Shown here in pieces: positions 3,892 through 53,791 of a stretch of DNA of 64,000 bases. The DNA comes from Alkalispirillum mobile. Its GTDB lineage: Bacteria; Pseudomonadota; Gammaproteobacteria; Nitrococcales; Halorhodospiraceae. The translations under genes were made by a program, and so were the position numbers. The notes under the pieces were generated by a model. It did not search any database and was not told the DNA's origin. It worked only from the letters and a program-made list of their open reading frames with translations. The DNA is taken from contig NZ_RCDA01000001.1 of the NCBI RefSeq assembly GCF_003664325.1, positions 620,001 to 684,000 on the forward strand, read 5' to 3'. The first letter of the stretch is position 1, and each line of letters begins with the position of its first letter.

Positions 3892-5028
3892 TTACAGCCG
3901 GTCGGTGATGGCGCGACGCACGTCGTCCAGCGTGGCGTCGATGGTGCGCAGGGCGTCGCTGGACTGCTGGATGGCAACGTCCGGGTCTTTCAGGCCGTGC
4001 CCGGTGAGCGTGCAGACCACGGTGCTGCCCTCGGGGATGACCCCGTTGCGGATATCGCGCATGGCGCCGGCCAGCGAGGTGGCCGAGGCCGGCTCGCAGA
4101 AGACGCCTTCCCGGTCGGCGAGCAGCCGTTGGGCCTCAAGGATCTCCCCGTCCGTGCATTCGTCGAACCAGCCGCCGGACTCCTCCTTGACCTTCCAGGC
4201 GTAGTCCCAGGACTGCGGGTGGCCGATGCGGATGGCGGTGGCCACGGTGTCCGGGTCATCCACCATGTGGCCGCGCAGGAAGGGGGCGCTGCCGCTGGCC
4301 TGGTAGCCCACCATGACCGGGCGCTTGTCGACGATGGCGCTGGCGTACCGGCAGTGGCCGTGGCACAGGCTGCACGCTTCGGTGAGGATGCCCTCGCCGC
4401 GCCCGGAGTACTCACAGTAGCCGATCCAGTGGGCGGTGATATTGCCGGCGTTGCCCACGGGCAGGCAGTGGTAGTCGGGGGCCCGCTCCAGCTCCTCGAC
4501 GATCTCGAACGCCGCGGTCTTCTGCCCCTGCAGGCGGTAGGGGTTCACCGAGTTGACGATGGTCACCGGCGCATGTTCGGCCACCTCCTTGACCAGGCGC
4601 ATCCCGTCGTCGAAGTTGCCGCGGATCTGCAGCACCTCGGCGCCGTGCATGATGGCCTGGGCCAGCTTGCCCATGGCGATCTTGCCATCGGGGATGAGCA
4701 CGAACGCCTTGATACCGGCGCGGGCGGCGTAGGCCGCCGCCGAGGCGGAGGTATTGCCGGTGGAGGCGCAGATGATGGCCTTGCTGCCCTCCTCCACCGC
4801 CTTGGTCACGGCCATCGTCATGCCGCGGTCCTTGAACGACCCGGTGGGGTTGAGCCCCTCGTACTTGACGTAGATATCCACGTCCTTGCCCAGCTCGCCC
4901 GGGATGTTGTTCAGCCGGATGAGGGGCGTGTTGCCCTCCCCCAGGCTGATCAGGCGGCTGTCATCCTTGACCGGCAGACGGTCGTGGTACTTGGCGATAA
5001 GACCGGTATAACGCGGGCGAAACGGCAT
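3892..5028 (-). CDS. thrC: Threonine synthase
   Basis: 378 residues. It converts O-phosphohomoserine to threonine with pyridoxal phosphate. The PLP lysine is K66 in NPTGSFKDRG, the phosphate loop is the GNAGN at 192-196, and the STGNTSAS motif is at 89-96. An unusual feature is a short insertion after the GNAGN region carrying four cysteines at 205, 219, 222 and 226, with the local pattern CSLCHGHC, which looks like a metal or iron-sulfur knuckle. Threonine synthase chemistry needs no metal, so its role is unknown. The gene follows hom by 21 bases, giving a hom-thrC pair for the last steps of threonine synthesis. Confidence 0.95.
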   Translation of the reverse strand: MPFRPRYTGLIAKYHDRLPVKDDSRLISLGEGNTPLIRLNNIPGELGKDVDIYVKYEGLNPTGSFKDRGMTMAVTKAVEEGSKAIICASTGNTSASAAAYAARAGIKAFVLIPDGKIAMGKLAQAIMHGAEVLQIRGNFDDGMRLVKEVAEHAPVTIVNSVNPYRLQGQKTAAFEIVEELERAPDYHCLPVGNAGNITAHWIGYCEYSGRGEGILTEACSLCHGHCRYASAIVDKRPVMVGYQASGSAPFLRGHMVDDPDTVATAIRIGHPQSWDYAWKVKEESGGWFDECTDGEILEAQRLLADREGVFCEPASATSLAGAMRDIRNGVIPEGSTVVCTLTGHGLKDPDVAIQQSSDALRTIDATLDDVRRAITDRL

Positions 5029-5049: not shown

Positions 5050-6363
5050 TCAGGAATCAAAACGCTCGACGCGGATGCGCGTCAGGCGCCCATTGACGGC
5101 CGGCAGGCCCTCGATCTGTTCGATGGCGGCGTTCATGCGGTGTTCCTTGACCCGGTGGGTCAGGAAGATAACCGGTACGTCCTCGGCACCCGGCGCCGGC
5201 TCCTTCTGCATGATGGCCTCGATGCTGATGCCGAGCTCACCCAGAATGCGCGTGACATCGGCCAGCACGCCGGGCTCGTCCTGGGCCATCAGGCGAATGT
5301 AGTACGCCGTCTCCACCTCGCCCATGTCCAGCACCGGGTCGTTGGACAGGAAGTGGGACTGGAAGGCCAGGTAGGGCACGCGGTTCTCGGGCTCGAGGTT
5401 GAACTCGCGCACCACGTCCACCAGGTCGGCGACCACCGCCGAGGCGGTCGGCTCAGAGCCGGCGCCCGGGCCATAGTAGAGGGTCGGACCCACCGCATCG
5501 CCGCTGACCATCACCGCGTTCATCACCCCGTCCACGTTGGCCAGCATGTGGCGCTGGGGCAGCAGCGTCGGGTGCACGCGCAGGGAGTAGCCGTTCTCCT
5601 CGTGCACGCAGATACCCAGATGCTTGATGCGGTAACCGAGTTCCTCGGCCCAGGCCACGTCCTCGGCGGTCACGTGGGCGATCCCCTCCACGTGCACCTT
5701 GTCGAACTGCAGCGGGATGCCGAAGGCGATGGAGGCCAGGATGGTGAGCTTGTGCGCCGCGTCGATGCCCTCCACGTCGAAGGTGGGGTCGGCCTCCGCG
5801 TAGCCCAGCCGCTGCGCCTCGGCCAGCACCTCGCCGAACTCGCGCTCGGCGTAGAACATCTCGGTGAAGATGTAGTTAGCGGTGCCGTTGATGATCCCGG
5901 CCAGCCACTGGATGCGGTTACCGGTCAACCCTTCGCGCATGGCTTTGATGATGGGGATCCCGCCGGCCACGGCCGCCTCGAAGACCACCGTGACCCCCTT
6001 CTCCCGCGCACGGGCGAAGATCTCATTGCCGTGCAGGGCGATGAGCGCCTTATTGGCGGTGACCACGTGCTTGCCGTTGTCGATGGCCCGTAATACCAGC
6101 TCCAGGGCCGGCTCGTAGCCACCGATCAGCTCGACGATGATCTCGGTTTCCGGATCGTCCACCACCTGGAAGGGGTCGGCGGTCAGGCGGATACCCTCGG
6201 TACGACAACTGCGCGGCCGGTCCAGGTGGCGGGTGGCCGCGGCAACCACCTGGATCTCACGACCGGCACGGCGGGTGATCTCATCGCTGTTGCGCTCAAG
6301 GATATTGACGGTACCGCTGCCCACGGTACCCAGGCCTAGCAGCCCGACTTTCACCGGTTTCAA
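5050..6363 (-). CDS. hom: Homoserine dehydrogenase
   Basis: 437 residues, monofunctional type. It reduces aspartate semialdehyde to homoserine with NAD(P)H for threonine and methionine synthesis. The N-terminal Rossmann motif GLGTVG is at residues 10-15, the ELIGGYEPA and TANKALIA segments of the family follow, and a C-terminal ACT domain (from about residue 350) is the likely threonine feedback site. The start is TTG: it overlaps the alaC stop as TTGA and is preceded by an excellent GGAGG seven bases upstream, so translation is probably coupled. No ATG nearby gives the conserved N-terminus. Confidence 0.96.
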
Positions 6364-9501: not shown

Positions 9502-10308
9502 TTATTCCCGTGAAGGCAGGTGCCCTAGCGGGTCCACGGGATCGCCGTCCCGCCGCAGTTCGAAATGCAGGCCGGGGCTGTTCGCCCCCGGGCCGCGCCC
9601 CATTTCGGCGATCACCTGCCCTTTGCGAACAGACTCGCCTTCGCTCACATGCAGCCGGCGGTTATAGCCGTACGCCGTAAGGTACTGGCTGTCGTGCTTG
9701 ATGATGACCAAATTGCCGTAGCCGCGCAGCGCCGAGCCGCTGTAAACCACCGAGCCATCCGCCGCGGCCCGGATATCAGCCCCTTCCCGGCCACGGATCT
9801 CGATACCGCGCTTACCACCGCCGCCGCTCTCGAAGCGCTTGGCCAGCTCGCCCTCCACCGGCCATTGCCAGTCGATGTCTCCGCCGCCTGAAGGCGCCGG
9901 CGCTGGGCTTGAACCGGAACCCGTGCTGCCACCCGCAGCGGGGCTACTGCCGCTACTGGACGAGCTCGGAGGCGTGCTGGTGCTGCCCCCGCCGCCCTCC
10001 GAACCGGACTGACCGGAACCGCTGGCCACGGGGCGCGTCCCGCCGCCGCTGCCGGAGGGTGGGTTGAGGCGCAGCCGTTGGCCGACCTGAATGTGGTCCG
10101 GGGACGAGAGGTTGTTCCAGCGGGCCACTTCGCGATAGTCCAGCCCGTGGCGCCAGGAGATGGCGTAGAGGGTATCGCCCGGCCGGACTTCGTAATGGTA
10201 GACCCGGCTACCGCCGTCGCCGGAAAACGACGGCCAGGAGAAGCTGGCGCAGCCGGTCAGCGTCAAGACCGACAAGGCCACCACCGCTAGCCGGGTCAGC
10301 CCTTTCAT
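9502..10308 (-). CDS. nlpD: NlpD-like lipoprotein with LysM and degenerate M23 peptidase domains
   Basis: 268 residues from the ATG at 10306-10308. The N-terminus is a lipoprotein signal with the lipobox LTGC, then a LysM peptidoglycan-binding domain (YEVRPGDTLYAISWRHG), a Ser/Gly/Pro-rich linker, and a C-terminal M23/LytM domain. The LytM active site is degenerate: the family HxHF is GLHFELR and the first zinc ligand region reads KRGIEIRG, as expected of NlpD/EnvC amidase activators. NlpD activates AmiC for septal peptidoglycan splitting. The start overlaps the yqaA stop as ATGA. Confidence 0.93.
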   Translation of the reverse strand: MKGLTRLAVVALSVLTLTGCASFSWPSFSGDGGSRVYHYEVRPGDTLYAISWRHGLDYREVARWNNLSSPDHIQVGQRLRLNPPSGSGGGTRPVASGSGQSGSEGGGGSTSTPPSSSSSGSSPAAGGSTGSGSSPAPAPSGGGDIDWQWPVEGELAKRFESGGGGKRGIEIRGREGADIRAAADGSVVYSGSALRGYGNLVIIKHDSQYLTAYGYNRRLHVSEGESVRKGQVIAEMGRGPGANSPGLHFELRRDGDPVDPLGHLPSRE

Positions 10309-51650: not shown

Positions 51651-52469
<819 letters not shown>

Positions 52470-52488
52470 TAGCCCGCTCGCCGGGACC

Positions 52489-52610
52489 GGCCAGTGGCCG
52501 GGGGCGGGGCCCCCACAGGGGGCGTCGGCGGCCAAGGACGGCCGCCGACGAGCTTACAGGGACGTACTTGCAGCGTCCCCCTGTGGGGGCCCCGCCCCCG
52601 GCCACTGGCC
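52489..52610. repeat. Large nested palindromic element between dapD and dapE
   Basis: Perfect 34-base inverted arms (52489-52522 with 52577-52610) enclose a second perfect 11-base hairpin (52523-52533 with 52540-52550, loop 52534-52539) and a 26-base linker. The arms are extremely GC-rich and contain GGGGCCCC-type cores. An alternative fold pairs 52559-52564 with 52574-52579 and competes with the base of the large stem. No open frame lies in it. It could be a dispersed intergenic repeat, a strong transcription stop between dapD and dapE, or a transposase-less element. Confidence 0.85.
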
Positions 52611-52663
52611 TCGGCACCGCCTACCTGACACCACCACCCTCTTTACCGGACTCGGCCCAATTC

Positions 52664-53791
52664 ATGTCTGAAACGCTGGAACTCGCCTCCGCCCTCATCG
52701 CCCGCCGCTCCGTCACGCCGTTGGACGCTGGCTGCCAGCAACTCCTGGCTGACCGGCTGCAGCCGCTGGGCTTTGACTGTGACCGGCTGGACTATGGCGA
52801 CGTAAGCAACCTATGGGCTCGCCGCGGCCGCGCCGGCCCGGTCTTCTGCTTCGCCGGCCATACCGACGTGGTCCCCCCCGGACCCGAGGCGCAATGGCGC
52901 CACCCCCCCTTCCAGCCGGTAGTCGAGGACGGACTGCTGTACGGCCGCGGGGCCGCCGACATGAAGGGCAGCGTGGCGGCCTTCGTCACCGCACTGGAGC
53001 GCTACCTGGCCGACGGCCATCAGCCACGCGGCGATATCGCCCTGCTGATTACCAGCGACGAGGAGGGGCCGGCCGTGGACGGGACCCGGCGGGTAATCGA
53101 GACGCTGAGCCAGCGCGATGAACGAATCGACTGGTGTCTGGTCGGCGAACCCTCCAGCACCGAACGGGTGGGCGACGTGGTCAAGGTCGGGCGGCGCGGT
53201 TCGCTCAACGGCCGGCTGACCGTGCGCGGCGACCAGGGCCACGTGGCCTACCCGCACCTGGCGCGCAACCCGGTACACCTGGCCCTGGCGGCACTGGATA
53301 CGCTGCAGGCCACCCGCTGGGACGAGGGCAACGACCACTTCCCGCCCACCAGCTTCCAGATCTCCAACATCAACGCCGGCACCGGTGCCACCAACGTCAT
53401 CCCCGGTGAACTGGAGGTGCTGTTCAACTTCCGCTTCTCCACCGAGGTGACCGCCGAACAGCTGCAACAACGGGTGGCGGCCGTACTGGACGACCACAAC
53501 CTGGACTGGGCCATCGACTGGTCACTCTCCGGTGAGCCCTTCCTGACGGCGGAGGGCGACCTGGTGGCCGCCACGCAGGCCGCGGTGCAGCGGGTTTGCG
53601 GTGAGCCGCCCGTGCTCTCCACCTCCGGCGGGACCTCGGATGGACGGTTCATCGCCCCCACCGGCGCTCAGGTGCTGGAACTCGGGCCGGTGAACGCCAC
53701 CATTCACAAGGTCAACGAGCACGTCCGGGCGGCGGACCTGGACCGTCTGTCCGCCATCTACGAGCAAATGTTGCGGGAGTTGCTCGGCTGA
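52664..53791 (+). CDS. dapE: Succinyl-diaminopimelate desuccinylase
   Basis: 375 residues from the ATG at 52664 ([19 protein letters not shown]); the open frame extends far upstream through dapD but only in a spurious phase. A dizinc M20 peptidase: [11 protein letters not shown] (histidine), RGAADMKGS (aspartate), [11 protein letters not shown] (glutamates) and the terminal [10 protein letters not shown]. It yields LL-diaminopimelate. It is separated from dapD by the palindromic element. Confidence 0.97.

Follow-up and report, generated by a model that had tools for sequence, protein, structure and literature searches.

ERIC is a 127-bp intergenic palindrome of enterobacteria, and integron attC sites are recognised as folded single strands in a strand-selective way that tolerates change in the sequence of the stem, with conserved boxes at their foot and a variable tip. 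Other described systems are the REP, BIME and REPIN sequences, short intergenic palindromes present in many copies and often in inverted pairs (PMC8266576, PMC6006769). GTAG REPs are defined by a hairpin of 20-40 bp or 21-65 nt in which, on the folded strand, GT[AG]G stands 0-2 nt from the foot (PMC3733652, PMC6006769), and CGTC REPs by an 8-9 bp stem opening with A/T pairs and an unpaired CGTC at one end (PMC3733652). Di Nocera 2013 further describes, for A. variabilis and H. neapolitanus, REP dimers embedded in long palindromes, as well as TIRtrons and TIRYTs, in which tyrosine transposase genes lie between long inverted repeats, some of these repeats being self-complementary and dispersed in S. 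maltophilia (PMC3733652). As to the enzymes, the TnpA-REP and IS200/IS605 proteins are reported to read folded single strands strand-specifically (PMC8266576, PMC6006769), and the TnpAY1 subclass 2.3 to have spread recently in Chromatiales and Alteromonadales, no REP partners being recognised for it (PMC6006769).

The element considered here lies between dapD and dapE in a 64,000-nucleotide stretch of the Alkalispirillum mobile genome (the window). It is probably one copy of a dispersed, non-autonomous mobile element, best read as REP/REPIN-like and of a new structural type. From left to right on the plus strand, it comprises the left arm of an outer stem (52489-52522, 34 nt), an inner hairpin of 11 bp with the loop AAGGAC (52523-52550), the 26-nt linker AGCTTACAGGGACGTACTTGCAGCGT (52551-52576) and the right arm of the outer stem (52577-52610, 34 nt). 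The two arms are 100% complementary, and are the longest and the sole perfect ones among the 13 inverted repeats of 16 nt or more (maximum distance 150) of the 64-kb window. The inner hairpin is apparent both from reading the sequence and from the RNA fold, and its pairing is kept in the family by compensatory changes. Folding of 52480-52620 as RNA gave -131.9 kcal/mol, compared to a mean of -79.5 (sd 4.5; z -11.7) for 200 dinucleotide shuffles of the same interval, none of which reached the observed energy. The arms, inner hairpin and linker of the preliminary description are confirmed. The latter had also proposed two mutually exclusive folds. The alternative pairing exists on paper, as GGGACG at 52559-52564 can pair with CGTCCC at 52574-52579, but the predicted minimum fold retains the long stem, the linker making a small third helix instead. 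In the family model, this plus-strand helix joins GCT (52552-52554) to AGC (52572-52574) and TAC (52555-52557) to GTA (52564-52566). Since the linker letters involved in the alternative pairing are near-invariant in relatives, covariation is no test of the alternative fold.

Both flanking genes were confirmed by NCBIfam: on the plus strand, the portion of dapD taken into the family search runs from 51672 to 52469 (TIGR00965), its stop codon being at 52467-52469, and dapE from 52664 to 53791 (TIGR01246, NF009557; end from the gene call). As to the close dapD-dapE pair that the element was said to interrupt, the spacing is 197 nt here, compared to -1 (the start overlapping the stop) in eight of 10 same-family genomes, with 5 nt and 1270 nt in the other two, and it ranges from 41 to 625 nt in 19 further relatives. 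None of these 29 junctions holds a unit. A weak unit (27 bits) of the relative G006 (L300, 2951-3004) lies past the expected 5' end of dapD, as placed from dapD length, outside the dapD-dapE junction. A gene judged by eye as arsC/Spx-like often stands between dapD and dapE in other families of the order (L276, L283-L285 and others).

The sequence itself recurs widely. BLAST searches with a 62-nt core recovered a second clear copy from the own genome and were positive for 21 of 59 relatives (own genome counted in), and a search with the pattern of the tail yielded at least 120 matching stretches, the genera among the matches listed being Xanthomonas, Stenotrophomonas, Luteimonas, Marinobacter, Haliea, Aquisalimonas, Halopseudomonas, Sedimenticola and Rheinheimera; the linker thus does occur in other gammaproteobacteria, as the preliminary description had suggested. 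A covariance model, R1, was built from 61 non-redundant copies. It matches the window on the plus strand at 52510-52589 (C1:672510-672589) over model positions 1-78 of 78, with 83.9 bits. Over the whole of the own genome it detects five units, of which three score 83.9, 82.9 and 75.4 bits and the other two, at 39.5 and 34.3 bits, are weak, so that the element is not single-copy. Units were detected by R1 in 28 of 149 gammaproteobacterial genomes, own genome included, in a class-wide survey with stricter filters, no more than 31 candidates being scored in each genome; 11 genomes picked as carriers hold from 20 to at least 150 units each, and the counts for Luteimonas and Haliea are 82 and 35, respectively. 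These further copies, in the own genome and in many gammaproteobacteria, support the initial suggestion of a dispersed repeat. The typical unit measures 100-125 nt, and in Luteimonas the 62-nt core is identical in 20 of the 20 copies retrieved. Neither a Xanthomonas unit nor the window unit matched a plasmid or a phage at E 1e-3, and the tail pattern was not matched exactly on any viral contig.

The copies share a fold. RNAalifold gives for the family an outer stem, an inner hairpin and a small linker helix, which together form a three-way junction. The outer stem has a median length of 26 bp (130 copies), and its sequence is free while its pairing is kept. In the alignment of the copies, 92.7% of 1707 cells are paired and 409 are compensated, both sides having changed, compared to 116.6 in shuffles, none of 500 shuffles reaching the observed count; five or six standard pair types occur in nine of 13 outer-stem pairs. 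Pairing drops to 29-41% when the partner is slid by 1-3 columns, a control that leans in favour of the structure because the latter was derived from the same alignment. Inner stems are of 8-11 bp (25 non-redundant copies), and the inner-hairpin columns are 84% paired, being partly misaligned because stem length varies. The linker is the best-conserved portion of the family and near-invariant. Within it, the column pair 48/66 (columns numbered from 0) covaries (C-G 40, T-A 10, G-A 11) and the pair 61/64 of alignment A1 is C-G in 28 and T-A in 33 copies with no exception, merely two bases lying between, and the two pairs vary independently of each other. The arms have a G+C content of 75%, compared to 65% for their loci.

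The residual mismatches in the arms point to one strand. If the fold were used on both strands alike, or on neither, G-T and A-C mismatches would be expected in equal numbers. On the core strand, 81 G-T and 15 A-C mismatches were counted in 75 non-redundant arms with symmetric scoring, 41 arms having more G-T and three more A-C. The signal weakens with stricter de-duplication, to 26:6 in 30 arms and to 10:3 in 13 arms (p 0.09, not significant). Other counts are 42:14 with fixed 20-nt arms and 98:11 with symmetric scoring and de-duplication within categories only, and a count of 70:13 came from a score that spares G-T; the inner hairpin, at 3:2, has too few mismatches to tell. Sorted by host-gene context, the ratio is 21:1 for units in sense and 31:2 for units in antisense to co-directional genes, and 41:6 in convergent gaps. 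Since the excess is alike in sense and antisense units, folding of the host transcript does not account for it, and the signal argues for a fold that is read on the own strand of the unit and not on the host mRNA. A mutation bias linked to replication or to host transcription should, for its part, average out across orientations.

A G-T excess independent of host-gene direction, together with strong RNA covariation, is also what a small non-coding RNA gene would leave, the unit or the doublet being transcribed from its own strand and selection keeping the fold of the core-strand RNA. Such a gene is nevertheless very unlikely, given that more than 100 copies and frequent absence at orthologous sites would be unusual for it. 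Besides, neither a sigma-70-like nor a terminator-like pattern was called in 52300-52800, which for the promoter represents one copy and one promoter type, and Rfam returned no family at gathering score for the window copy (best 35.9 bits, 168 being needed) and nothing except one tRNA over 15 and 11 unit-bearing loci. Matches of the window copy to MIR1437, Ysr224 and other Rfam families lay far under the gathering score and were ascribed to chance similarity with a long hairpin.

The genomic places of the units bear on another possibility, that of an element functioning in mRNA at gene ends, whose stem would block 3' exonucleases or be cut by RNase III, thereby setting the levels of neighbouring cistrons in a REP- or ERIC-like manner, and which would have spread by rare duplication. 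Two of 113 unique-context units lie inside a predicted gene. The 84 gaps holding units are co-directional in 45 cases, convergent in 34 and divergent in five, compared to 367, 116 and 108, respectively, of 591 background gaps at the same loci; convergent gaps are over-represented (Fisher p 6e-5) and divergent ones under-represented (p 0.003), these counts being approximate, as the gene calls are home-made and based on codon usage and the background includes the unit-holding gaps. A larger set comprises 57 co-directional, 47 convergent and six divergent gaps and two units inside predicted genes. This preference for convergent and avoidance of divergent gaps speaks for the mRNA element, as do some units that by eye outdo their flanks in conservation and, in the own genome, the presence of three units between prp operon genes and of one 3' of fba. 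However, no clear orientation bias exists relative to co-directional genes (22 sense and 23 antisense; 32 and 25 in the larger set), the core-strand G-T excess persists even in antisense units, presence differs between related species, and the units are devoid of an intrinsic terminator, a T-run following the stem in one of 153 units on one strand and in none of 153 on the other. An mRNA element is therefore rather unlikely, and the transcript-end or stability role that had been envisaged is not supported as main function. Host mRNA may still be affected secondarily, the units being rare in divergent and frequent in convergent gaps.

One operon of the own genome contains three of its five units (L256, C3:17000-31000; units at 4078-4157, 5522-5603 and 9891-9971), in the order prpB-unit-prpC-unit-acnD-prpF-unit-prpD, and a further palindromic sequence breaks into the second of these units after TACAGGG. 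The pgk/fba region carries units in four genomes (L255, L267, L101, L089), placed 3' of fba in the own genome, in the pgk-fba gap and 3' of fba in M. vulgaris, between pgk and fba in M. azerbaijanicus, and 5' of pgk in Pseudomonas sp. WN033.

Units that neighbour each other mostly form inverted pairs. Among 208 distinct neighbour pairs at most 4 kb apart, 135 are -/+, with a median gap of 169 nt, 32 are +/-, 22 -/- and 19 +/+, in a sample rich in Xanthomonas, where the pair and its spacer form a repeat of about 400 bp. In Luteimonas, the repeated stretch runs about 300 nt upstream of the unit. In these two genera the moving entity may thus exceed the unit, the repeated stretch being longer (about 400 and 300+ bp). 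In Luteimonas weifangensis (L235-L254), many units are followed downstream by degenerate right-half copies, made of the tail and right arm, and preceded upstream by a more extended repeat that contains a terminator-like stretch.

Orthologous sites were aligned in ten groups and judged by eye. In two of these groups, the core is flipped between conserved flanks (L100 and L150 compared to L151 and L056; L123 compared to L067). In three groups, the inner hairpin and the arms except their innermost 7-12 nt are exchanged while the flanks are alike, pairing being retained between the new arms (L060/L068; L067 and L104/L123; L119 and L169/L125), and in a fourth the arms are replaced (L056 compared to L100, L150 and L151). 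A more specific version of the mobile element would account for such exchanges. In it, the enzyme would see the folded tip of the core strand only and each copying or insertion event could rebuild the outer stem, one arm being recopied, for example, by fold-back or template switch, so that a given site could change its arms or invert its core with pairing intact; mobilisation would then differ from that of RAYT/REP and from DDE transposition. This shape-read version is unlikely. In two further groups, the unit is better conserved than its flanks (L101/L209, L118/L122), which fits a host function too. Presence itself varies: of the loci examined at two Xanthomonas sites, units were found in seven of 30 at one and in 11 of 25 at the other, with one to three per site, the sites having a match in 34 of 35 and 32 of 35 genomes, some of them not true orthologues, and units being sought within 900 nt. 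Deletions leaving one arm end are seen in L420 and L422 compared to L428, and in L457 compared to L450. No base-exact empty site was obtained among the sites compared, and absences can be deletions.

If the units are mobile and non-autonomous, the nearest model is a single-strand enzyme acting in trans, because TnpA-REP and IS200/IS605 proteins are reported to read folded single strands strand-specifically. One may ask in this context whether the units are simply an outlying REP family moved in trans by an ordinary RAYT, or TnpA-REP, enzyme of the Y1 HUH class. Their intergenic sites and inverted pairs are traits of GTAG REPs and REPINs, Y1 transposase genes occur in eight of nine and 11 of 13 genomes searched, all of them unit-bearing, and before the inner hairpin on the opposite strand the copies show GTAG-GCTC (40 of 61), GTAC-GCTC (11 of 61) or GTAA-GCTC (10 of 61). 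Yet none of 25 Y1 loci has a unit within 1.5 kb, and in a first set of 18 Y1 matches one region contains units, the nearest at about 1.5 kb from the Pfam match, so that a RAYT was rejected as flanking partner; Luteimonas and Haliea gave no Y1 match, despite their 82 and 35 units. The GTAG-like foot, moreover, is separated from the hairpin by 4 nt, and the strand that carries it is not the one showing the arm G-T excess; the unit also exceeds GTAG REPs and REPINs in size. An ordinary RAYT-driven family is accordingly quite improbable. CGTC REPs do not correspond either, the inner stems being of 8-11 bp and the CGTC of the window copy sitting within a stem, paired in the predicted fold. The TnpAY1 subclass 2.3 is a candidate mover, by host range only.

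Nor did other movers emerge near the units. No recurrent neighbour gene family was recognised within 3 kb, and no transposase was seen by eye among the 40 clusters listed, the largest ORF clusters being frames through the repeats or ordinary neighbours. An autonomous copy was looked for among -/+ pairs separated by over 350 nt; the sole pair beyond 400 nt encloses prpC in the own genome and, since it consists of two separate prp-operon units, is not an autonomous copy. A DDE-type MITE would fit the lack of coding capacity, the inverted-repeat ends and the many copies; however, no parent element was found, and direct repeats of at least 4 nt beside the arms of 150 units show no excess (nine observed compared to about 12 in shuffled flanks), in a test which assumes that the ends are at the arms and whose outcome could change if the true ends lie elsewhere.

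Relative to the systems described at the outset, the unit thus resembles REP, BIME and REPIN sequences in the traits that PMC8266576 and PMC6006769 give for them, and is unlike them by its three-way junction, conserved tip, free outer stem and lack of a flanking RAYT. As to TIRtrons and TIRYTs, no unit lies within 1.5 kb of any of the four Y1 genes in the S. maltophilia genome analysed; the comparison with the families of PMC3733652 is one of text, and identity with some of them is possible. The open-access texts searched contain no description of the unit sequence, an earlier one in subscription papers or figures being possible. ERIC has in common with the unit an intergenic, imperfectly palindromic and non-autonomous nature, and the 9-mer GAGCTTACA occurs both in ERIC and in the window copy, but R1 gave no match, at E up to 10 and with filters off, on the two E. 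coli ERIC copies tried. The attC site is the reverse of the unit, whose tip is conserved and whose stem is free. Finally, an intrinsic terminator, with a GC stem followed by a T-run, was dismissed for the window copy as for the family.

Taken together, the copy number, patchy spread, covariation, presence and absence at orthologous sites, inverted pairs, strand signal and dapD-dapE junctions empty in 29 of 29 relatives underlie the reading of the unit as a non-autonomous mobile element, and three of them, namely the copies, the covariation and the variable presence, lend weight to the transposase-less mobile element already suggested from the window alone. In this mobile element, an enzyme acting in trans would recognise the unit as a folded single strand, always the core strand; by analogy it could be of the HUH/Y1 type or another single-strand recombinase. 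The stem would need pairing alone, whereas the tip would carry the recognition letters. In the own genome, one unit would have landed between dapD and dapE and the others in four other gene gaps, and effects on host transcripts, if any, would be by-products.

With tens to more than 100 copies per genome in several gammaproteobacterial genera and no mover found, the family bears on how bacterial palindromic repeats spread and on why their stems stay paired as their letters change. It is also relevant to the annotation of gene gaps such as dapD-dapE, those of the prp operon and those of the pgk-fba region. The strand-specific count of wobble pairs provides, in addition, a simple sequence test for single-strand recognition, applicable to REP, ERIC and other repeats.
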